Assembly: GCA_024280485.1 (NCBI GenBank)
Contig: JAJRQB010000165.1
Span: 1-52,869, forward strand
Length of the DNA: 52,869 bases
Reading direction: 5' to 3'
From: Deltaproteobacteria bacterium
Lineage (GTDB): Bacteria > Desulfobacterota > Desulfuromonadia > Desulfuromonadales > Geopsychrobacteraceae
A program made the position numbers and the translations under genes. This document shows, piece by piece, positions 3,805 to 38,977 of this stretch; within the stretch, counting starts at the first letter, position 1, and each line of letters starts with the position of its first letter. Below the pieces are notes generated by a model, which had not been told where the DNA came from, ran no database searches, and worked only from the letters and a program-made list of their open reading frames with translations.

Positions 3805-4900
3805 ATTCAAATTGCAAGTGCACCACGCGCTACGGGCCAGAACACTTCATGGGGTGTCCGGTATCCAAGACATTTCCGTGGTCGATTATTTAACCGCCTG
3901 ACGGCTTCTGCAACGGCATCCTCGTTGACTTTGCGAAAGTCGATCCCTTTTTGAAAATACTGTCGCAATAAACCGTTGGTATTTTCGTTGGCTCCCCGCT
4001 GCCATGCAGCATAAGGATCAGCGAAGTAAACTGTCAGGCGTGTTCTCTTCTCAAGTTCTTTGAAATTAGCGAATTCAGAGCCGTTGTCCAAGGTCAACGT
4101 TTGCCGCATTCTCCGGGGAATGGGGCCAAAAGCTTTGATACATTTTTCTGTCAGTGTTGCTGCTTTTTTGTCTTCGAGTTTCGCTGCTACAAGGTAGCGA
4201 CTTTTGCGTTCGACCATTGTTGCGACACAACCGGTTCCCAGCTTTCCTTGAATCGTGTCGCCCTCCCAGTCACCAAATCTTTGCCGGGTTGCAACCACTT
4301 TTGGCCGCTGATCAATACTGACTCGACCAGCTCGGAAACGACGCCCTGCGCCGTACCTACGCTGCTTTCGCCGTTTTTTATGTTTACGGCGTAGTTGCTT
4401 ATATAGGGTCCCGTCGACACTGCTTTCAAGATAGAGCCAGCGATAAATGGTTTCGTGGCTGATTCGCATGCGATCATCTTTTGGATAGTCTATGCGAATC
4501 CTGTTTGCAATCTCCTCTGGCGACCATTCTTGACTGAGTTTGGATGCGACATAAGCCACCAGTCGCTGATTATTTTGCCGTCTAAAATGCCGAGGTTGCT
4601 GGTTGCTCTCAAGAGCTAATGGTTGCGTCCAGCTGTAATGATAAGTTGTCCACGGATGCCTGGCTTTGGCTCGTTTGAACTCTCGACTGATGGTGCTGTG
4701 ATTACGGTCAAGTCGCCGGGCAATTTCCCGGATGCTGTAATCATATTGTAAATGGCTGATGACATAGCGCTCTTTTTCGCTAAGATGTTGGTAGGACATG
4801 GCAGGATCCCTTCTGGCTCTGAGTTGGTCGTACTTCACAGAATACCAGAAGCCCTGTCATGTTCTACTCTTAGCTCAAGTGGTGCACTTTGAAGTTGAAT
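3805..4900 (-). mobile_element. IS30-family insertion sequence
   Basis: About 1.1 kb with one transposase gene and 22-base imperfect inverted ends: ATTCAAATTGCAAGTGCACC at the left (from 3805) and ATTCAACTTCAAAGTGCACC inverted at the right (ending at 4900). These match at about 19 of 22 positions. The right end supplies the last residues and stop of the neighbouring membrane-protein gene, showing that the element inserted into that gene. No clear short target duplication was seen. Confidence 0.82.
3807..4799 (-). CDS. IS30-family transposase
   Basis: A 330-residue transposase. The N-terminal helix-turn-helix reads YSIREIARRLDRNHSTISRE (about residues 21-40). The DDE core has GDWEGDT (first Asp), LTLDNGSEF (second Asp) and GANENTNGLLRQY (Glu), which are diagnostic of IS30. 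The ATG at 4799 (MSYQHLSEKER) is chosen over an upstream start that would add 13 residues, because IS30 proteins usually begin at this point and an AAGGGA sequence precedes it. The frame is intact. Confidence 0.92.
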   Translation of the reverse strand: MSYQHLSEKERYVISHLQYDYSIREIARRLDRNHSTISREFKRAKARHPWTTYHYSWTQPLALESNQQPRHFRRQNNQRLVAYVASKLSQEWSPEEIANRIRIDYPKDDRMRISHETIYRWLYLESSVDGTLYKQLRRKHKKRRKQRRYGAGRRFRAGRVSIDQRPKVVATRQRFGDWEGDTIQGKLGTGCVATMVERKSRYLVAAKLEDKKAATLTEKCIKAFGPIPRRMRQTLTLDNGSEFANFKELEKRTRLTVYFADPYAAWQRGANENTNGLLRQYFQKGIDFRKVNEDAVAEAVRRLNNRPRKCLGYRTPHEVFWPVARGALAI

Positions 4901-26050: not shown

Positions 26051-26080
26051 TTGACAAAACAATTAGTGTAAATTTATTAT
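26051..26080 (+). promoter_or_regulatory. Strong sigma-70 promoter of the riboswitch-activator transcript
   Basis: TTGACA (26051-26056), an 18-base spacer and TATTAT (26075-26080). It is the only near-consensus pair in this 569-base gap and places the transcript start just ahead of the riboswitch aptamer (about 26087). Confidence 0.75.
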
Positions 26081-26092
26081 GATTCGAAAATA

Positions 26093-26189
26093 CTGAGTTG
26101 ATACACGATAATACTAAACCACTCGTAAGGGTGGGACGGAAAGCCTATAGGATCTCAATGAGATAGCCAGGTTGCCGAAATATCTTCAG
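26093..26189 (+). promoter_or_regulatory. GEMM-I riboswitch aptamer, predicted cyclic AMP-GMP type (GEMM-Ib)
   Basis: The GEMM-I core is plain: CTAAACCACTCGTAAGGGTG (stem with a GTAA GNRA loop), GGGACGGAAAGCC, a second stem GATCTCAATGAGAT, then AGCCAGGTTGCCGAA. P1 can form between CTGA..GATA (26093-26102) and TATC.TTCAG (26181-26189). Aligned by the conserved AAACC to the V. cholerae Vc2 aptamer, the base equal to G20 is A (26113). The A20 form and the AATACTAAACC 5' strand are those of Geobacter GEMM-Ib RNAs that bind 3',3'-cGAMP. The next gene is the sigma-54 activator at 26458. Ligand identity is a prediction; the aptamer class is near certain. Confidence 0.9.
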
Positions 26190-26212
26190 ATATTCGGTGA
26201 GCTGGTTTTTTT
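26165..26212 (+). terminator. Terminator serving as riboswitch expression platform
   Basis: CCGAAATATC (26175-26184) pairs with GATATTCGG (26189-26197) around a TTCA loop. An outer CCAG/CTGG pair follows and then seven T residues (26206-26212). The 5' half of the stem overlaps the 3' strand of the aptamer P1, so ligand-bound P1 and terminator exclude each other. This predicts an ON switch: ligand present, read-through. Confidence 0.8.
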
Positions 26213-26232
26213 GTGTCTGGTTGAGAAATGAG

Positions 26233-26284
26233 CAGTTATTGTGGGGAGTATAACATGCAAATGTTATACTCCCCACAATAACTG
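26233..26284. repeat. Perfect 24-bp inverted repeat with GCAA loop
   Basis: Positions 26233-26256 and 26261-26284 are exact reverse complements of 24 bases each, separated by GCAA. The arm begins CAGTTATTGTGGGGAGTATA. As RNA it forms a very stable hairpin with a GNRA tetraloop, placed between the riboswitch terminator and the activator gene. No T-run follows, so it is not an ordinary terminator. It could be an RNase III site, a 5' stabiliser or a DNA operator. Confidence 0.85.
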
Positions 26285-26457
26285 TTGATATTAATTATCA
26301 AATATGTATTTATGTTCCAACTCTGGACAGCGTGGTCTCATGTGATTGACTTAGGTTGTGTTTATAGCAAGCGTTATGCGTTAAGGAGTCGGGCCGTGTT
26401 TGCCCGTGCATATGGAGATACCTCGAAATTGGATTTATACCAATCGGGAGAGAGTTG

Positions 26458-27819
26458 ATGCCGAGTCGTTACCTAAATCTAGATCAACTGATCAACCTCA
26501 GTATTGATGCGTCCGCTTCTGGGCTGCCGCCGAACCATAACCTCCTTGATAGTGTTGCTGACGGCATCTTCGCCGTTGATAGCGATATGCGGATTATTTC
26601 TTTTAATCATGCAGTAGAAAAGATGACAGGTTATGCACGAGAAGAGGCAATTGGCAAATATTGCAAGGATATATTCAAGAGTGAAATGTGCCGTCAGGAA
26701 TGTTCGGTACAAAAAACTATCCACTCTGGTGAGTCCGTTTCAGGCAAAGAGCTTGATATCTTCAATAAACATAATCAACCACTGCGTGTATCTATAAACG
26801 CTTCGCCGCTTAGAAATGAACAGGGTGATATTGTAGGAGCCGTTGAGACGCTGCGTAATCTCTCTCGCGCGGTGGAAAGAAAGCCATATCAGAGCAAATA
26901 TGTTTTTGAAGAAATCTATAGTCGTAATGAAGGGATGCACGGTCTTTTTGATGTTATGCCTGATATCGCTGCCAGTAATGCCACAGTATTGATTCAGGGA
27001 GATAGTGGCTCCGGGAAAGAACTATTTGCCCGTGCTATCCACAAACTGAGCCCACGCTCTAAGGGGCCATTGGTTATCGTTAACTGTGGGGCCTTGCCCG
27101 AACCTTTACTTGAAGCGGAAATCTTTGGTGCCCGACGCGGAGCCTACACGGGCGCTGTTGAAAGTCGTCCCGGGCGACTCGAGATGGCGGAGGGCGGGAC
27201 GTTGTTTCTTGATGAAATAGGCGATTTACCACTTGCCCTGCAGGTCAAGCTTTTGCGCGTGTTGGAAAATCGTGAGTATCAGCCGTTAGGCGCAAAATCA
27301 CCGATGAAAGCAGATGTACGTTTTGTTGCTGCAACTCATCGTAATCTAGAGAAAATGGTTGCAGATGGGAGTTTCAGGCGTGATCTATATTTTCGAATTA
27401 ATGTTATAGGATTCACAATTCCTTCTTTAAGCGAACGACGCGAAGACATTCCCCTCCTGCTTGATATGGCACTAGATCGCTTCAATTTAGAGTATGCGAA
27501 GTCGGTACGAGGGTTTTCTCCGGCGGCGATGCGTTTATTGATGGAACATGAGTTTCCTGGGAATATCAGGGAGTTGTTGAACATTGTAGAGCAATCAATT
27601 ATTTTCTGCAGGAATGGAGAAATCAGTGCTGAGCTCTTGCCTGAGAGTGTCCGAATTGCCGACCCTGAGAGTTCAAGACGACGTCGTGGTTGCCCAGAAG
27701 AGGCAGCGTTGCGCGCGGCACTAGATCGGTTTGATGGAAATAGAAATCGCACCGCACATGAATTTGGGGTAGATCGTACGACCCTTTGGCGTTGGATGCA
27801 AAAGTACGAGCTTTGTTAA
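26458..27819 (+). CDS. PAS-domain sigma-54-dependent transcriptional activator
   Basis: A 453-residue enhancer-binding protein without a receiver domain. The PAS domain (about residues 30-140) contains a cysteine cluster [17 protein letters not shown]. The AAA+ core (about 160-390) has Walker [19 protein letters not shown] in place of GAFTGA, Walker [14 protein letters not shown], and an arginine-finger region [10 protein letters not shown]. The Fis-type HTH is at the C-terminus ([18 protein letters not shown]). ATG 26458 has GGGAG seven bases upstream. The gene lies behind the riboswitch and upstream of the respiratory clusters. The likely inputs are cGAMP, through RNA, and a redox or metal signal through the PAS cysteines (inferred). 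Confidence 0.9.
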
Positions 27820-28893: not shown

Positions 28894-29064
28894 TCAAACC
28901 TCCAGTGGAACTCTGTGATTAAGGCTAGTTCTAGTGGCCTACATTACTAATTGTCAAAGTTGAAGTGATGATCATATCAAAGAAAGAGTAATAAATAATA
29001 TAAAGTACGACTTTAACTACAATAAAATATTTGACGATAGCTTGGTTGATGCAGTTTTGATTAT

Positions 29065-29097
29065 GCAACATGGGTGCAACATGAATGCAACGAAGTG
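29065..29097. promoter_or_regulatory. Three TGCAAC boxes at an 11-base period
   Basis: TGCAACATGGG, TGCAACATGAA and TGCAACGAAGT stand head to tail (29065, 29076, 29087). The 11-base step puts all boxes on one face of the helix. They lie about 220-245 bases upstream of the candidate sigma-54 promoter, a usual place for enhancer-binding-protein sites. Confidence 0.6.
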
Positions 29098-29199: not shown

Positions 29200-29215
29200 C
29201 GTTGCAATTGCAACG
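29200..29215. promoter_or_regulatory. Palindrome CGTTGCAATTGCAACG
   Basis: A perfect 16-base palindrome made of two TGCAAC boxes facing each other. It sits about 95-110 bases before the candidate sigma-54 promoter. A dimeric HTH protein such as the 26458-27819 activator could bind it. Confidence 0.6.
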
Positions 29216-29226
29216 TCACGACCGAT

Positions 29227-29624
29227 TTGAAAATTAAGATTACTACTTTGACCATTCGTAAGGTACTGATTTTTATAGAAAATAATATTTTTAGAAGATT
29301 ATTGGTAACTGGCACGGCCCTTGGATTAATGAGAGCCATGAAAATAAACAGAGAGTTTAGAGATCTGAGAATTGGTGTGACTTCAGGGGGAGAGGTTGTG
29401 TTGACGGGAGAAACTGGCCCCAAGGCATTTCGAACCTTGACAGCGGTTAACATTGGAGTGGTCCACAATGTAAGTGGAGTTTTGTTGAAGAAGCAGTGCG
29501 GGACAGTTTGAATGGGCGCTTTTCACTTGCGCCGCATCCAAATGAGGTCCGAATTGCCTTCTGGGAAAGTATTTGGCTCAAAAAAAGTCGAAACCCGCTG
29601 AAACATCCTTCACTGGGTAGCTAG
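29227..29624 (+). pseudogene. BON-domain-like gene with a frameshift
   Basis: The first frame (from TTG 29227 to TGA 29511) contains a BON-like pattern FRDLRIGVTSGGEVVLTGE followed by VVHNVSGV, then runs out of frame. From about 29484 another frame continues plausibly: VEEAVRDSLNGRFSLAP, then NEVRIAFWESIWLKK, ending in HPSLGS and TAG at 29622-29624. One extra T in the GTTTTG run at 29479-29484 would join them. Either a recent frameshift or a sequencing error is present. The candidate sigma-54 promoter lies inside the 5' part, so the upstream start is doubtful. Confidence 0.45.
29310..29324 (+). promoter_or_regulatory. Candidate sigma-54 promoter of the first NrfD operon
   Basis: TGGCACGGCCCTTGG: GG (29311-29312), 10 bases, GG (29323-29324). 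The -24 box is perfect; the -12 box is TTGG rather than TTGC. The predicted start is near 29336. TGCAAC boxes lie upstream at enhancer distance and a sigma-54 activator gene is nearby. Confidence 0.5.
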
Positions 29625-29648: not shown

Positions 29649-30863
29649 ATGGCAAATGGGATTGTTCCATCAAGTTTAACCCTGGGTGAGATCGAATCGG
29701 CCCTGGTTGGCCGCCTGCGCTCAGGCGGGAACGGCTATTACGTCGCGGTATTGCTTTCGGGTGTGTTGATGCTGGTTGGTGCAATAGCAGCGCTTTACGC
29801 AACAGTTGGCGGACATCATACGATTTATAATGTAACCCGTGAAATACCTTGGGGAGTGTTGATCTCGGGCTACATATTTTTTGTCGTTACCGCGACCGGA
29901 CTCTGCCTGATTTCATCAATCGGACATATCTTTGGAAGTAAGACTTTCATGCCTATTGCACAAAGGGCAGTCTTTCTTTCGATCGTTACATTGATGTCGG
30001 GGTTCTTCGTAATTCTGGCCGAGATTAAGGTGCCGATCCGGATGTTGATTTACAATATCATCTCGCCGAATTTTACCTCGAGTATCTGGTGGATGGGGAC
30101 GCTATATGGTTTTGCGCTTTGCCTGATGATCTTTGAATTTATTTTTCTGCTCATCGGTCGTCATCGGCCAGCAATCGCCTGTGGATTCGTGGCGCTGCTC
30201 GCGGAGATTGCCGCAATTAGCAATCTAGCAGGTGTTTTCGGCCTGTTGAATGGCCGTGAATTTTGGCATGGGCCCTATCTGCCGATCTTCTTTATCGCGT
30301 CTGCAATGATGGTCGGAGCCTCTGCAATCATCTTCTTTCAGATCCTTGCGCAGAAGGTTAATGGTGAACCCTTCACGCCGATGATGAGAACCTGTCTGGC
30401 CGGCGCTCGCAAGGTAGCTATTCTGATGATCTGCATCATCCTTTTCTTCACAATCTGGCGCACTGTTTCGACCCTGGTTGGTATGCCAAATGGTCAATAT
30501 GTCGGGGTCATGGCGATGCTGACCGGGCCCTACGCCTTGAGCTTCTGGGGGGGGGAAATTTTAATGGCCCTGTTGGCGCCGCTGGTGCTGTATATCCTTT
30601 CGCGCGGAACAAACATTCGCATGATGCTTCTGGCCTCAGGACTAATGCTTCTTGGAGCATTTTTCATGCGTTACAACATGGTGATAGTTGGTCAGATCAT
30701 CCCGGTTTACATCGATCTGAATGTGACCGGCTTTACCGAACTTCTCCAGTATTTCCCGTCGACAAACGAAATTATTATCACGCTCGGGGCATTCGGATTG
30801 ACCGGGTTCTTGTTCTTGCTGGGTGAAAAGATATTTAACGGTCATAAGGTCGAGGATCATTAA
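29649..30863 (+). CDS. NrfD/PsrC-family quinol-interacting membrane subunit, module 1
   Basis: A 404-residue integral membrane protein with about 10 helices, of the NrfD family that exchanges electrons with the quinone pool in complex iron-sulfur enzymes. Recognisable blocks are NVTREIPWGVLISGYIFFVV near the start, LSIVTLMSGFFVILAEI, and a late FFMRYNMVIVGQIIPVY. ATG 29649 has AGGGAG upstream; a TTG at 29625 adds eight residues. It is followed by its ferredoxin partner (29 bases), a trihaem cytochrome and a small membrane protein. No molybdopterin or other catalytic subunit is present. Confidence 0.9.
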   Translation: MANGIVPSSLTLGEIESALVGRLRSGGNGYYVAVLLSGVLMLVGAIAALYATVGGHHTIYNVTREIPWGVLISGYIFFVVTATGLCLISSIGHIFGSKTFMPIAQRAVFLSIVTLMSGFFVILAEIKVPIRMLIYNIISPNFTSSIWWMGTLYGFALCLMIFEFIFLLIGRHRPAIACGFVALLAEIAAISNLAGVFGLLNGREFWHGPYLPIFFIASAMMVGASAIIFFQILAQKVNGEPFTPMMRTCLAGARKVAILMICIILFFTIWRTVSTLVGMPNGQYVGVMAMLTGPYALSFWGGEILMALLAPLVLYILSRGTNIRMMLLASGLMLLGAFFMRYNMVIVGQIIPVYIDLNVTGFTELLQYFPSTNEIIITLGAFGLTGFLFLLGEKIFNGHKVEDH

Positions 30864-30892
30864 GTGCGATTGTCTCGCAGGAGTGGACAGAT

Positions 30893-31645
30893 ATGATCAG
30901 GAATTTGATTAAAAACAAACAGCAGAATGAAGGGGTTGAGGCCCTGTCAAATGATGAGCGGCGCCATTTCCTCAAGATGGGATTAAAGCTGACAGGTGTC
31001 TTTGCCGGAGGTTCGCTCCTGTCGCTGGTGTCTGTGGTTGTAAAAGTCTACGCAACCCCAGGCCAGTTTAAGGACAAGTACCCCTACAGGCCGCACTACA
31101 GCATGGTTATGCATCTGGATTATTGTGTTGATTGTGAGCGTTGTATCGAGGCCTGTGCCGCAACGAATGATATCCCCAAGTACGGATTTCGCACCAATAT
31201 CCTTGAGCGACAGATTCCAGATGGAATTGATCAGCAGGTTGAATTCATGCCGGTGCTCTGTAATCACTGTAACGTCGCGCAGTGCGCCAGGGTTTGTCCG
31301 ACGGCGGCTACCTATAAGAATGAACAAAACGGTATCGTCATGATGGATGTTAAGAAATGCATCGGCTGCCTGTCATGTCAGTTGGCCTGCCCTTATAACG
31401 CACGCTATTTCAACGAGGAAAAATGGGCTGTAGATAAGTGTGATTTCTGTTTCGATACTCGACTTAGCAAGGGAGTGGATTTAACCGCTTGCGCTGAGGC
31501 TTGCCCTGCCGGAGTACGGATATTTGGTGATATTTCAGATCCGAAAAGTCGCGTGTATCGTGAGGTCCATCAGGTCAGCAGAACCGTTTGGGTGCTGCGG
31601 CCAGAAGCTGGGACCAAGCCAAATGTTTTTTACACCAGAGGCTGA
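30893..31645 (+). CDS. Tat-exported four-cluster ferredoxin subunit, module 1
   Basis: A 250-residue DmsB/NrfC/HybA-type electron-transfer subunit. A twin-arginine motif ERRHFLKMG precedes a hydrophobic stretch at about residues 23-50, so it is exported or membrane anchored. All 16 cluster cysteines are present: CVDCERCIEAC, CNHCNVAQCARVCP, CIGCLSCQLACP, and CDFC...CAEACP. It would pass electrons between the NrfD partner and the next gene's cytochrome. The neighbour spacing is 29 bases upstream and 18 downstream, indicating one operon. Confidence 0.9.
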   Translation: MIRNLIKNKQQNEGVEALSNDERRHFLKMGLKLTGVFAGGSLLSLVSVVVKVYATPGQFKDKYPYRPHYSMVMHLDYCVDCERCIEACAATNDIPKYGFRTNILERQIPDGIDQQVEFMPVLCNHCNVAQCARVCPTAATYKNEQNGIVMMDVKKCIGCLSCQLACPYNARYFNEEKWAVDKCDFCFDTRLSKGVDLTACAEACPAGVRIFGDISDPKSRVYREVHQVSRTVWVLRPEAGTKPNVFYTRG

Positions 31646-31663
31646 ATCTCGGCCAGGAGAAGA

Positions 31664-32035
31664 TTGATGAAGAAACTGTTGTTGGGAATGATCTTGCTGG
31701 GGTTCGTTGCCATGCCTGTATTCGCCGATGATTCGGGGGGGGATATCCATTATGACAAACCGGTGATCGGAGTGCTATTCAGTCACGCGAGTCATGTTGA
31801 AGAAGCTGGCCTTGACTGTGATAGTTGTCATAATGATTTATTTTCAATGGAGGCTCGAGCCGTTCAGGAAGAACAAGATTTCAATATGTTAGCACTGTCA
31901 GAGGGGCGCTACTGTGGTGCCTGCCATGATGGCGAAATGGCTTTTGCATCAAGCACCCGATGTGCCTCTTGCCACGAAGGCGCGATCGGTTTTAGACGAT
32001 CTCTCGGCTTGAATGATTCAGGGGGTCGTCATTAA
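31664..32035 (+). CDS. Periplasmic trihaem c-type cytochrome, module 1
   Basis: A 123-residue protein with a signal peptide (KKLLLGMILLGFVAMPVFAD) and three CxxCH haem sites: CDSCH (about 53), CGACH (about 85) and CASCH (about 99). The FSHASHVEEAG segment ahead of the first haem supplies axial histidines, as in cytochrome c7/c3-type proteins. It is probably the periplasmic electron acceptor or donor of the NrfD-ferredoxin pair. It ends with a Gly/His-rich tail. Confidence 0.9.
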   Translation: MMKKLLLGMILLGFVAMPVFADDSGGDIHYDKPVIGVLFSHASHVEEAGLDCDSCHNDLFSMEARAVQEEQDFNMLALSEGRYCGACHDGEMAFASSTRCASCHEGAIGFRRSLGLNDSGGRH

Positions 32036-32080
32036 CGGAGGTTGTACAGGAACAACAACACCCACTGAAGGGAGGCTACC

Positions 32081-32266
32081 ATGACCGCGACAAGAACAGT
32101 CGATCAAGTGATGAGTGTCGAGATGGCTAAAACAACCGAAGTGAGCAATCCATTTGCTACCGCTTGGTTGTGTGTTTTAGGTCTGATTCTTGGCTCAACC
32201 TTGCTTTGCTCAGCAGTTTTGATGGCTTGGCCAATTGTTGCCCAGTATGCCGCTAACCTGCATTGA
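32081..32266 (+). CDS. Small single-pass membrane protein of the NrfD operon
   Basis: A 61-residue protein. An N-terminal polar part (to about residue 25) is followed by one transmembrane helix, FATAWLCVLGLILGSTLLCS, continuing AVLMAWPIV, and a short end. There is a good GGAGG ribosome binding site. I do not recognise a family. It closes the operon before a terminator, and may be a small subunit or assembly factor of the module 1 complex. Its two membrane cysteines could be of interest. Confidence 0.7.
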   Translation: MTATRTVDQVMSVEMAKTTEVSNPFATAWLCVLGLILGSTLLCSAVLMAWPIVAQYAANLH

Positions 32267-32290
32267 AAAAAGCAGAGGAACCTCCATTCG

Positions 32291-32319
32291 GGGCGTCTCG
32301 CAAGAGACGCCCTTTTTTT
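32291..32319 (+). terminator. Rho-independent terminator of NrfD operon 1
   Basis: GGGCGTCTC, a GCAA loop and GAGACGCCC, followed by seven T residues. It lies 25 bases after the small membrane protein stop. The following space to 32573 shows no gene and no clear promoter, apart from AT-rich sequence. Confidence 0.92.
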
Positions 32320-36735: not shown

Positions 36736-37662
36736 ATGCCGGATCAAAAGAAACAGGATGATCACGTTTTCAGGTTGAGTCGTCGTAAAACCCTTAAGGG
36801 GCTTGTTGCGGGATTAGGTGCTATAGCACTTCCTTCAGCTACGGCTTCAGCCTCGGTCTGGGAGTCCTTTTTTCAGCAGCATTTTCGGGAGTTGAGCAAA
36901 AAGGAACTTCAGGAGGTTCTGGCGCGTCTCGAAAAGGGCTACAGCAAAGAGTATGGCAAGCCGGTCAAGGTCAAGGCAACAGCGCCGATCGAAGGAGTGA
37001 AGTTCGGCTATGGTCTTGATCTCTCGCGCTGCATCGGTTGTCGCCGCTGCGTTTATGGATGTGTGACAGAAAACAACCAGTCGCGCGATCCGCAGGTCCA
37101 CTGGATCCGGGTGGTGCAGCTTGACAAAGAGAGAGGTGTCGATCTCGACAAGGCCGAGCATTACTACAATCCGAAAAAAGTTCCCGAAGAGGGCCACTTC
37201 TATATGCCGGTCCAGTGTCAGCAGTGTGAAAACCCGCCCTGCACCAAGGTATGCCCTGTACAGGCGACCTGGACGGAGACCGATGGTGTCATCGTCGTCG
37301 ATTACAATTGGTGTATCGGTTGCCGCTACTGCATGGCTGCCTGCCCGTACGGGGCGCGTCATTTCAACTGGAGCAAGCCAACGATTCCAGCAGACGAGGT
37401 CAATCCTGACACCCATTATCTGGGGAATCGACCTCGTCCGGTCGGGGTTGTCGAGAAATGTACCTTTTGTGTGCAGCGAACTCGAGAACAGCCGGGGAGA
37501 TATCCGGCCTGTGAGGAGATCTGCCCGGTCGGAGCGCGCAAGTTCGGCAATCTACTCGATCCGGATAGTGAAATCCGTTACCTGATTGAAAATAAGCGGG
37601 TATTTATCCTCAAGGAAGACCTGAATACGCAACCCAAATTCTTCTATTTCTACGCGACCTAA
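36736..37662 (+). CDS. Tat-exported four-cluster ferredoxin subunit, module 2
   Basis: A 308-residue HybA/DmsB-type subunit. The twin-arginine signal is LSRRKTLKGLVAGLGAIA (about residues 14-31). Four cluster motifs carry all 16 cysteines: CIGCRRCVYGC, CQQCENPPCTKVCP, CIGCRYCMAACP, and CTFC...CEEICP. A helical linker of about 50 residues separates the signal and first cluster. It should shuttle electrons between the NrfD protein encoded next and the tetrahaem cytochrome. Confidence 0.92.
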   Translation: MPDQKKQDDHVFRLSRRKTLKGLVAGLGAIALPSATASASVWESFFQQHFRELSKKELQEVLARLEKGYSKEYGKPVKVKATAPIEGVKFGYGLDLSRCIGCRRCVYGCVTENNQSRDPQVHWIRVVQLDKERGVDLDKAEHYYNPKKVPEEGHFYMPVQCQQCENPPCTKVCPVQATWTETDGVIVVDYNWCIGCRYCMAACPYGARHFNWSKPTIPADEVNPDTHYLGNRPRPVGVVEKCTFCVQRTREQPGRYPACEEICPVGARKFGNLLDPDSEIRYLIENKRVFILKEDLNTQPKFFYFYAT

Positions 37663-37678
37663 ACCTGCGGAGTCTACC

Positions 37679-38977
37679 ATGCAATTACGTGAAGTCTGGT
37701 CGTTTTACAAAGGTACATTCGTCCTGATCGGTAAGGGGAGCAAGGCCTATTATGCTTGGGTGGCGATCCTGCTCTCTCTGATGGGCATCGGAGTTGCCGC
37801 TTACCTCTATCAGCTCAATCATGGGCTCGGGGTTACCGCTATGCGGGACCAGGTTTCCTGGGGCTTTTATATCTCCAACTTTACTTTTCTGGTTGGAGTG
37901 GCCGCCGCCGCAGTTCTCCTGGTTATTCCTGCCTATGTGTATAATTGGGGACCGATTAAGGAAATAGCGGTTCTGGGTGAGCTGCTCGCAATTTCCGCGA
38001 TCTGTATGTGCCTGATGTTCGTGACTGCCGATCTCGGGCGACCCGACCGTTTTTGGCATCTGATCCCCAAGATCGGTAATCTTAATTTTCCCAGTTCAAT
38101 GCTTGCCTGGGATGTTGTGGTCCTCAATGCTTACCTGGGGCTCAACCTGGTGATTGTGGTCTATTACCTTTATAAGACCTACTACAAACGGGTGGCCAAC
38201 GAGTCGTTTACCACCCCCCTGCTGCTGCTATCTATCCCGGCAGCGATCTCGATCCACACGGTGACCGCCTTTTTGTATAATGGCCTTGGGGCGCGACCCT
38301 TCTGGAATGCTTCGATCCTTGCCCCCCGTTTTCTGGCCTCGGCGTTCAGTGCCGGTCCGGCGCTCATGATTATCCTCTTCTTGCTGATCCGGAAATACAC
38401 CCGTTTTAAAATCAAGGATGAGGCGATCCACAAGGTTGCTGAGTTGATCGCCTATGCCATATTCATCAACCTATTTCTGTTCGGCGCCGAACTGTTCAAG
38501 GAGTTCTACACTGCAACCAAGCACTTGGCACCGATGGAGTACCTGCTTTTTGGTTTGCATGGGCACAATGCTCTGGTCCCCTGGATATGGACAGCGATAA
38601 TCTTCAACCTGTTTGCTTTTCTGATTTTCCTGATTCCTGAAACCCGGACTAACCATGTCACTCTTGTCATGGGCTGTGTGTTGATATTTATCGGAGTCTA
38701 TATCGAAAAAGGGATGGGTTTGATTATCCCCGGTTTTATCCCTGATGTGCTGCATGAAATCTATGAGTATGCCCCAACTGGAGTCGAACTTCTGGTTACT
38801 ATGGGGATTTGGGCCACCGGCATGTTCATCTTTACCATGCTGCTGCGGGTGGCGATTCCGATTCTCAACGGTGATTTTCATGTTGCCGATGACGGGATAG
38901 GTTCGTACATCGGTGATCAGATGTTCCTGACGAGTCCGACGAAAAAACCGATTCAGCAGCCCGAGGAACCTCTTTGA
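37679..38977 (+). CDS. NrfD/HybB-family quinol-interacting membrane subunit, module 2
   Basis: A 432-residue protein with about 10 transmembrane helices. Family blocks include YQLNHGLGVTAMRDQVSWGF, then YISNFTFLVGVAAAAV near the start, TADLGRPDRFWHLIPKIG, and AFLYNGLGARPFWNASILAP. The gene starts 16 bases after the ferredoxin stop with GGAG upstream. It is more like HybB/DsrP than module 1. With no catalytic subunit nearby, it probably links menaquinol to the tetrahaem cytochrome. Confidence 0.92.
   Translation: MQLREVWSFYKGTFVLIGKGSKAYYAWVAILLSLMGIGVAAYLYQLNHGLGVTAMRDQVSWGFYISNFTFLVGVAAAAVLLVIPAYVYNWGPIKEIAVLGELLAISAICMCLMFVTADLGRPDRFWHLIPKIGNLNFPSSMLAWDVVVLNAYLGLNLVIVVYYLYKTYYKRVANESFTTPLLLLSIPAAISIHTVTAFLYNGLGARPFWNASILAPRFLASAFSAGPALMIILFLLIRKYTRFKIKDEAIHKVAELIAYAIFINLFLFGAELFKEFYTATKHLAPMEYLLFGLHGHNALVPWIWTAIIFNLFAFLIFLIPETRTNHVTLVMGCVLIFIGVYIEKGMGLIIPGFIPDVLHEIYEYAPTGVELLVTMGIWATGMFIFTMLLRVAIPILNGDFHVADDGIGSYIGDQMFLTSPTKKPIQQPEEPL

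Follow-up and report, generated by a model that had tools for sequence, protein, structure and literature searches.

A riboswitch aptamer of the GEMM-I class, carrying an A at its ligand-discriminating base and sharing its 3' strand with an intrinsic terminator, lies ahead of a gene for a sigma-54 activator, and a palindrome and sigma-54-like promoter that recur near homologues of that gene stand before a neighboring respiratory operon. The explanation we favor, and consider fairly probable, is that a cGAMP-selective GEMM-Ib ON riboswitch controls the activator, which in turn would drive an NrfD operon beside it and one small gene on another contig (C74). The window, i.e., the whole 52,869-nucleotide stretch that we analyzed, is contig C11 of a 4.14-Mb assembly in 178 contigs (G000, the focal genome). 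Feature coordinates are collected in Table 1.

Results

The only gathering-level Rfam match within the window is to the c-di-GMP-I/GEMM-I family (RF01051; E = 1.8e-07). It spans the full model (positions 1-87 of 87) and scores well above the gathering score of 35 bits, which bears out the original prediction of a GEMM-I aptamer. Among the 17 GEMM-I aptamers of the focal genome, it ranks twelfth by score. The A predicted at the discriminating base is also present in the match. It is the unpaired base ahead of a two-base-pair element, at model position 11, which we take to be the equivalent of G20 in Vc2. Given the model structure and this numbering, A26113 would be the ligand discriminator.

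To place this aptamer among its kind, we compared 137 GEMM-I loci, made up of the window, its counterpart in the sister genome G007, the 16 others of the focal genome, and 119 loci from relatives. The last were taken best-first among the matches listed, leaving out loci at contig ends and many lower-scoring ones. We took the eleventh base of each match as position 20, which agrees with the reading of the 17 focal aptamers. Across the 137 listed loci the discriminator column was bimodal (95 G, 40 A, 1 C, and 1 N), and the focal genome itself had A20 in nine aptamers and G20 in eight. The two bases after position 20 covaried with their partners in the same loci. The resulting pair element was GC:GC at 110 loci (in 109 of them after an A or G, in one after a C), CC:GG at 20 (19 of them G20 aptamers), GT:AC at three, and CT:GG at two, the window and G007; one further element contained an N and one was read as CT:GC. 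Because A20 is joined to a C-first element only in the window, G007, and one aptamer of G027, this combination is rare among the loci listed, and the CT:GG element is atypical for A20 members, most of which have GC:GC. When position 20 was masked and the focal genus left out, a profile classifier scored the window aptamer as A20-like (+9.9), with only moderate discrimination between the two types (AUC = 0.79, 134 aptamers). The nearest match to the window aptamer other than G007 is a G20 aptamer (G035), and next comes the G027 aptamer, which combines A20 with CC:GG. Elsewhere in the focal genome, a tandem of a G20 and then an A20 GEMM-I aptamer precedes a single gene (L009, C45, 2300-2568, minus strand), an arrangement that could possibly act as a two-ligand gate for c-di-GMP and cGAMP.

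Table 1. Features of the riboswitch, activator gene, and predicted target operon, in window coordinates
Feature	Position	Strand	Basis or remark
Sigma-70 type promoter, TTGACA-N18-TATTAT	26051-26080	+	11/12 matches; both hexamers kept in G007
GEMM-I (RF01051) aptamer	26103-26179	+	Rfam, 52.4 bits; 76/77 bases kept in G007
Presumed ligand-discriminating base A (Vc2 G20 equivalent)	26113	+	Rfam alignment; Vc2 numbering assumed
Intrinsic terminator	26165-26212	+	Stem 26165-26207, T7 26206-26212; shares 26165-26179 with aptamer
29-nt inverted repeat between terminator and gene	26228-26289	.	93% complementary, 4-nt loop
PAS - AAA+ sigma-54 activator - Fis-type HTH, 453 aa	26458-27819	+	Pfam; GAYTGA loop in translation
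Three TGCAAC half-sites, spaced 11 bp	29064-29091	+	Conserved in G007; comparable repeats in G004
Palindrome CGTTGCAATTGCAACG, predicted activator binding site (UAS)	29200-29215	.	Recurrence near homologues
Sigma-54-like promoter CTGGCACGGCCCTTGGAT	29309-29326	+	-24 perfect; -12 TTGG, not TTGC
Probable remnant of PF02579 (NifX-like) gene, directly after promoter	29338-29511	+	E = 0.018; 54.5% identity over 33 aa to a G033 protein
NrfD-type membrane subunit, first intact gene of predicted operon	29649-30863	+	Pfam
4Fe-4S protein (Fer4_11)	30893-31645	+	Pfam
Triheme cytochrome c7	31664-32035	+	Pfam
61-aa putative single-membrane-helix protein	32081-32266	+	Look-alikes behind same promoter type elsewhere
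Terminator-like hairpin with T7, closing predicted operon	32290-32319	+	Read from sequence

The consensus promoter expected ahead of the aptamer holds up at the level of its hexamers, TTGACA at 26051-26056 and TATTAT at 26075-26080. Downstream, the terminator stem has a folding energy of -22 kcal/mol (z = -5.15), which none of 200 shuffled sequences equaled, and it was not listed by a simple terminator scan. Since the 5' arm of this stem includes the 3' strand of the aptamer, and both folds use 26165-26179, aptamer and terminator are mutually exclusive. The proposed competition between P1 and a terminator with seven T residues stands in its exclusion and its T tract, and needs amending in that the terminator takes the aptamer 3' strand, not P1 alone. 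The aptamer segment by itself folds at -21.9 kcal/mol, and its consensus structure evaluates to -11.1 kcal/mol, a value that leaves out tertiary contacts and ligand. When the whole leader was folded without constraint, the terminator formed, drawing on the aptamer 3' strand. Because the terminator excludes the aptamer, and by analogy with the pilM switch of Geobacter metallireducens, the leader fits a transcriptional ON riboswitch. In the absence of ligand, 26165-26179 would be drawn into the terminator and transcription would end at the T tract; with ligand bound, the aptamer would keep this strand and RNA polymerase would read on into the activator gene. Between the terminator and that gene, the plus strand showed no promoter-like site.

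The same interval contains the inverted repeat, whose hairpin is strong (-43.9 kcal/mol, z = -12.2). It is weaker in G007, where folding is confined to an 11-bp core dyad and some of the changes are paired. The repeat could be an operator, an mRNA stabilizer, or a product of quasi-palindrome correction, all of which are possible, and the hairpin might add an unrecognized regulatory layer. It is not a repeated element, having no second copy in the genome. A 48-codon open reading frame that overlaps the activator start (26312-26458) was rejected as a leader gene on account of an early stop in the G007 frame. The dyad AACATNNNNATGTT is at most a weak candidate for a general operator; allowing one mismatch it has five window matches where 1.81 were expected, a count reached in 3 of 100 shuffles. 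Its sole exact window match is at 26252; it is exact in G007 as well and not exact in the G001 and G004 segments.

The controlled gene is the AAA+ sigma-54 activator that had been predicted. Its product, translated from an ATG at 26458, matches PAS_9, Sigma54_activat (PF00158, E = 4.4e-65), and HTH_8 (PF02954, E = 2.5e-08), and it combines a loop of the GAFTGA type with a helix-turn-helix, as expected of a sigma-54 activator. The genome also encodes rpoN. Among the 137 listed GEMM-I loci, covered for mostly about 3 kb downstream and in some cases much less (e.g., L241), a sigma-54 activator follows the aptamer only in the window and G007 (hmmsearch, E <= 1e-10). The PAS domain (26560-26865) has several Cys residues (KYCKDIF..MCRQEC), which might bind metal or sense redox.

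Conservation between the focal genome and G007 is uneven. The aptamer is identical at 76 of 77 bases and the remainder of the terminator at 32 of 34; the figures are 118 of 156 for the upstream intergenic stretch, 35 of 54 for the inverted repeat, 150 of 171 for the rest of the leader, and 84% for third codon positions of the activator gene. The G007 terminator still folds, less strongly than that of the focal genome (-17.6 versus -23.9 kcal/mol for similar segments). The orthologous genes of G001 and G004, which belong to the same genus, have no aptamer; the one in G004 is 73% identical, and the one in G001 also follows atpE, the two being about 300 nt apart. An Rfam scan of 20 homologue loci, two of them with less than 400 nt of upstream sequence (L035 and L050), found an aptamer at G007 only. 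The idea that this is a general Geobacter arrangement does not survive these comparisons. Since the G001 and G004 orthologues lack the aptamer, the switch appears to have been added to an older circuit in one lineage, and the simplest reading is that it was gained in the ancestor of the focal genome and G007.

As a source of ligand, we examined the GGDEF domains, which occur at 24 places in the focal genome (E <= 1e-5). A REC-GGDEF protein on C69 (L161, 1456-2826, minus strand) has Ser in place of Asp in its nucleotide pocket and an intact GGDEF motif; a divergent GGDDY domain (L166) has such a Ser too. In the PDB, the C69 protein best matches 6d9m, the Hypr structure of Gmet_1914 (E = 5.4e-49), and its GHLAGSAAL aligns, Ser to Ser, with GHLVGSQVL of that structure. 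Orthologues occur once each in 40 of 41 genomes (E <= 1e-60), and the Ser is kept at all 30 cyclase loci checked, that of the focal genome included. Judged by its sequence, the C69 protein is a GacA-like Hypr cyclase and a candidate cGAMP maker that would supply the switch. According to the available text of a study of GEMM-Ib aptamers (PMC6456294), A20 favors cGAMP, an A20G change turns the cGAMP aptamer of Gmet_0970 into a c-di-GMP aptamer, and deletion of gacA lowered transcription of all genes behind GEMM-Ib. The same text describes some A20 aptamers that sense c-di-GMP too, and an OmcST switch that senses both ligands. With a single GacA-like Hypr cyclase encoded in the focal genome, we consider cGAMP a more likely ligand here than c-di-GMP.

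Upstream of the NrfD operon, as far as the convergent PEGA gene, the sequence has partly diverged from G007, with three well conserved blocks: the TGCAAC half-sites, the palindrome, and CTGGCACGGCCCTTGGAT. Comparable blocks stand at the same place beside the activator of G004, before a different operon. The TGCAAC half-sites are possibly extra activator contacts. The palindrome GTTGCANNTGCAAC occurs at 54 sites in 30 of 60 genomes, compared with eight sites for a reversed control. Of 21 homologue loci, 11 (the focal one among them) have a copy with no more than one mismatch in the 1.5 kb that follow the activator gene. At the other 10 (G014, G010, G029, G025, G023, G031, G020, G030, G040, and G002) it was not found within that distance; two of these have less than 400 nt of 3' sequence and four have less than 46% identity. 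In G029 a copy with one mismatch lies 2.4 kb on, and in G023 (L044), whose 3' side is 335 nt, the palindrome is absent from the whole locus.

Following the palindrome, CTGGCACGGCCCTTGGAT matches 12 of 13 positions of the usual sigma-54 consensus, TGGCAC-N5-TTGC; Markov-shuffled windows had 0.2 such sites each (20 windows). A search of the window for canonical promoters anchored on GG and GC gave two sites at 11/13, as many as the reversed control, and CTGGCACGGCCCTTGGAT surfaced only once the C of the -12 element was no longer required. Measured to the best promoter-like site 80 to 134 bp after the palindrome, the spacing was 108 to 113 bp at 12 of 14 inspected sites, the others being 101 bp (G021) and 90 bp (G053). 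Promoter scores were poor at G021, G053, and G027 (9 to 10 of 13, with 9 at G027). The sequence TGGCAYGNNNCTTGGAW had eight matches in 6 of 60 genomes (control, 2), six of them about 110 bp from a palindrome. When half-site, spacing, and promoter were combined, there were 19 matches in 13 of 147 genomes and one in the control. Of the 19, at least two (L332 and L334) stand before unrelated genes and could be chance matches; for three, the sequence available downstream is too short for an assessment. Exactly two matches fall in the focal genome, at C11:29209-29325 and C74:48401-48521. Nine activators encoded beside the palindrome, that of the window included, have TLWRW in the recognition helix region.

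The promoter is 322 nt from the NrfD gene. The intervening NifX-like remnant is called only probable because its Pfam score is under the cut-off; its G007 counterpart also looks decayed. On C74, the promoter leads to a lone gene for a small membrane protein, also of 61 aa and similar to that of the window. Beside the same palindrome and promoter there (L271/L318), another sigma-54 activator is encoded, 33% identical and with a different recognition helix, and this neighbor might be the true regulator of the C74 site. Putative single-helix membrane proteins of 47 to 61 aa with an ..AWPIIAHLA..-like end recur behind sigma-54-like promoters of this type (32081-32266, L328, L329, L330, L333, L335, L339, L341, L343, and L345), some with uncertain starts; two were searched, including that at 32081-32266, and matched no Pfam family. 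Elsewhere, similar promoters precede PF02579 proteins, MinD-type ATPases with ferredoxin domains, small membrane proteins, and 9-heme proteins. The available text of PMC12316311 names ParA/MinD groups, along with others, as enriched in the sigma-54 regulon predicted for Desulfuromonadia.

The original prediction had named the adjacent respiratory clusters as the probable regulon. This is supported insofar as a candidate UAS and promoter precede the 29649-32266 operon, and too broad for the window's other respiratory clusters: a search of the whole window found no second exact palindrome and no other sigma-54-like site scoring 12/13 or better, before those clusters or anywhere else. The one further site in the genome is that on C74. 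Another cluster, encoding FeS and DsrP-type proteins (36736-38977; NF045798, 431 bits, cut-off 350), was not found in the G007 segment examined. An integrase-core (rve) protein with HTH_38 (3807-4838, minus strand) is probably an insertion-sequence transposase. Finally, no CXXCH motif was counted in the reported downstream reading frames (up to five each, several contigs being short) of the 17 focal GEMM-I aptamers, so that cGAMP may reach cytochrome genes here mainly through the activator.

Discussion

We propose that a GEMM-Ib riboswitch sets how much of the sigma-54 activator is made, and that the activator, additionally gated by its own PAS domain, would bind GTTGCANNTGCAAC at 29200-29215 and drive sigma-54 RNA polymerase at 29309-29326. 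The NrfD/FeS/cytochrome c7/small-membrane-protein operon and the one C74 gene would thereby be switched on. Because the activator keeps a PAS sensor, the circuit would be an AND gate of second messenger and second signal. On the broader history, we see the case as evenly balanced for a Desulfuromonas-related lineage having gained a cGAMP riboswitch before a pre-existing sigma-54 activator, so that a protein relay running from riboswitch to activator, enhancer, and sigma-54, gated by a second signal, would carry cGAMP signaling to genes of respiratory electron transfer in place of riboswitches on the cytochrome genes themselves. Several points count against our preferred explanation, among them the atypical CT:GG element, the weaker terminator of G007, the TTGG of the -12 element, the probably decayed first gene, and the 10 of 21 loci without a nearby palindrome.

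There are three other readings. The switch could be the same with c-di-GMP, or both dinucleotides, as its natural ligand, the A20 variant having derived from G20 aptamers of the C:G type. The likeness of CT:GG to the CC:GG of 19 G20 aptamers, the G20 type of the nearest aptamer after G007, the eight G20 aptamers and many canonical GGDEF domains of the focal genome, and the dual-ligand OmcST precedent (PMC6456294, available text) all speak for it. We nevertheless hold it doubtful, if worth keeping in mind, since A20 favors cGAMP and A20G reverses this in Gmet_0970 (same source), a Hypr cyclase is present, and the aptamer next in similarity to G035 pairs A20 with CC:GG. Far less credible is a leader that is degenerate or read through constitutively, in which the aptamer no longer switches and the promoter and PAS domain alone set activator levels. 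Orthologues without an aptamer, the twelfth rank of the score among 17, and the weaker G007 terminator would agree with such decay, which is hard to square with an aptamer and terminator that G007 has kept almost intact, with a stem that still folds, while their flanks drifted.

A different concern is that the riboswitch is real and the palindrome belongs to another regulator, the activator acting elsewhere than on the adjacent operon. The palindrome does lie beside the paralogous activator on C74, it is often found away from this activator gene in the 30 genomes that have it, and the -12 element is unusual. We think this unlikely: the palindrome recurs 3' of the orthologous gene despite different downstream operons, its distance to the promoter is narrowly held, and the TLWRW of the nine activators beside it contrasts with TVARK in the C74 paralogue. 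If a riboswitch does control a sigma-54 activator whose candidate operator is mapped, cGAMP would command a second regulatory layer, and the locus would show how a riboswitch can join an old circuit. The regulon of this activator family, with its operator, its promoter, and the small membrane proteins, would also become open to direct tests.

A GEMM-I aptamer ahead of a regulator gene is already known from the Vc2 riboswitch on tfoY in Vibrio cholerae, which resembles the window in this respect and differs in being of the c-di-GMP type and in controlling a TfoX-family regulator. The closest mechanistic parallel is the cGAMP switch on pilM of G. metallireducens (PMC9262584), which, as far as the available text describes it, belongs to the same aptamer class, has a terminator that uses the aptamer 3' strand and excludes the aptamer, and is an ON switch; it controls pilus genes directly, whereas the window's would control a transcription activator. 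The GEMM-Ib switches of Geobacter sulfurreducens share with the window the A20 base and a Hypr cyclase (GacA) in the genome, and ON behavior is reported for them (PMC6456294 and PMC8835794, available text). Their named targets are mostly cytochrome, pilus, and surface genes, unlike a sigma-54 activator, and described cGAMP switches in general act mostly on structural genes (PMC9262584, PMC6456294, and PMC8835794, in the parts available).

The targets differ among relatives as well. Beside the activator, the operons of G004, G021, G054, and G039 encode a 9-heme c-type protein of 620 to 664 aa, which in G004 has a weak, below-cut-off match to cytochrome b561. In size and heme number these proteins look like CbcL, an inner-membrane quinone oxidoreductase (PMC9129911, available text); the window's predicted target is an NrfD/FeS/c7 module instead. 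Among the papers listed by our literature searches, we found no report of a sigma-54 activator controlled by a cGAMP or c-di-GMP riboswitch, and one GEMM-Ib target is called only "a transcriptional regulator" in the available text of PMC6456294. While GEMM-I control of a regulator thus has precedents, a GEMM-I aptamer on a sigma-54 activator, together with that activator's candidate regulon, is what the present locus adds to them.
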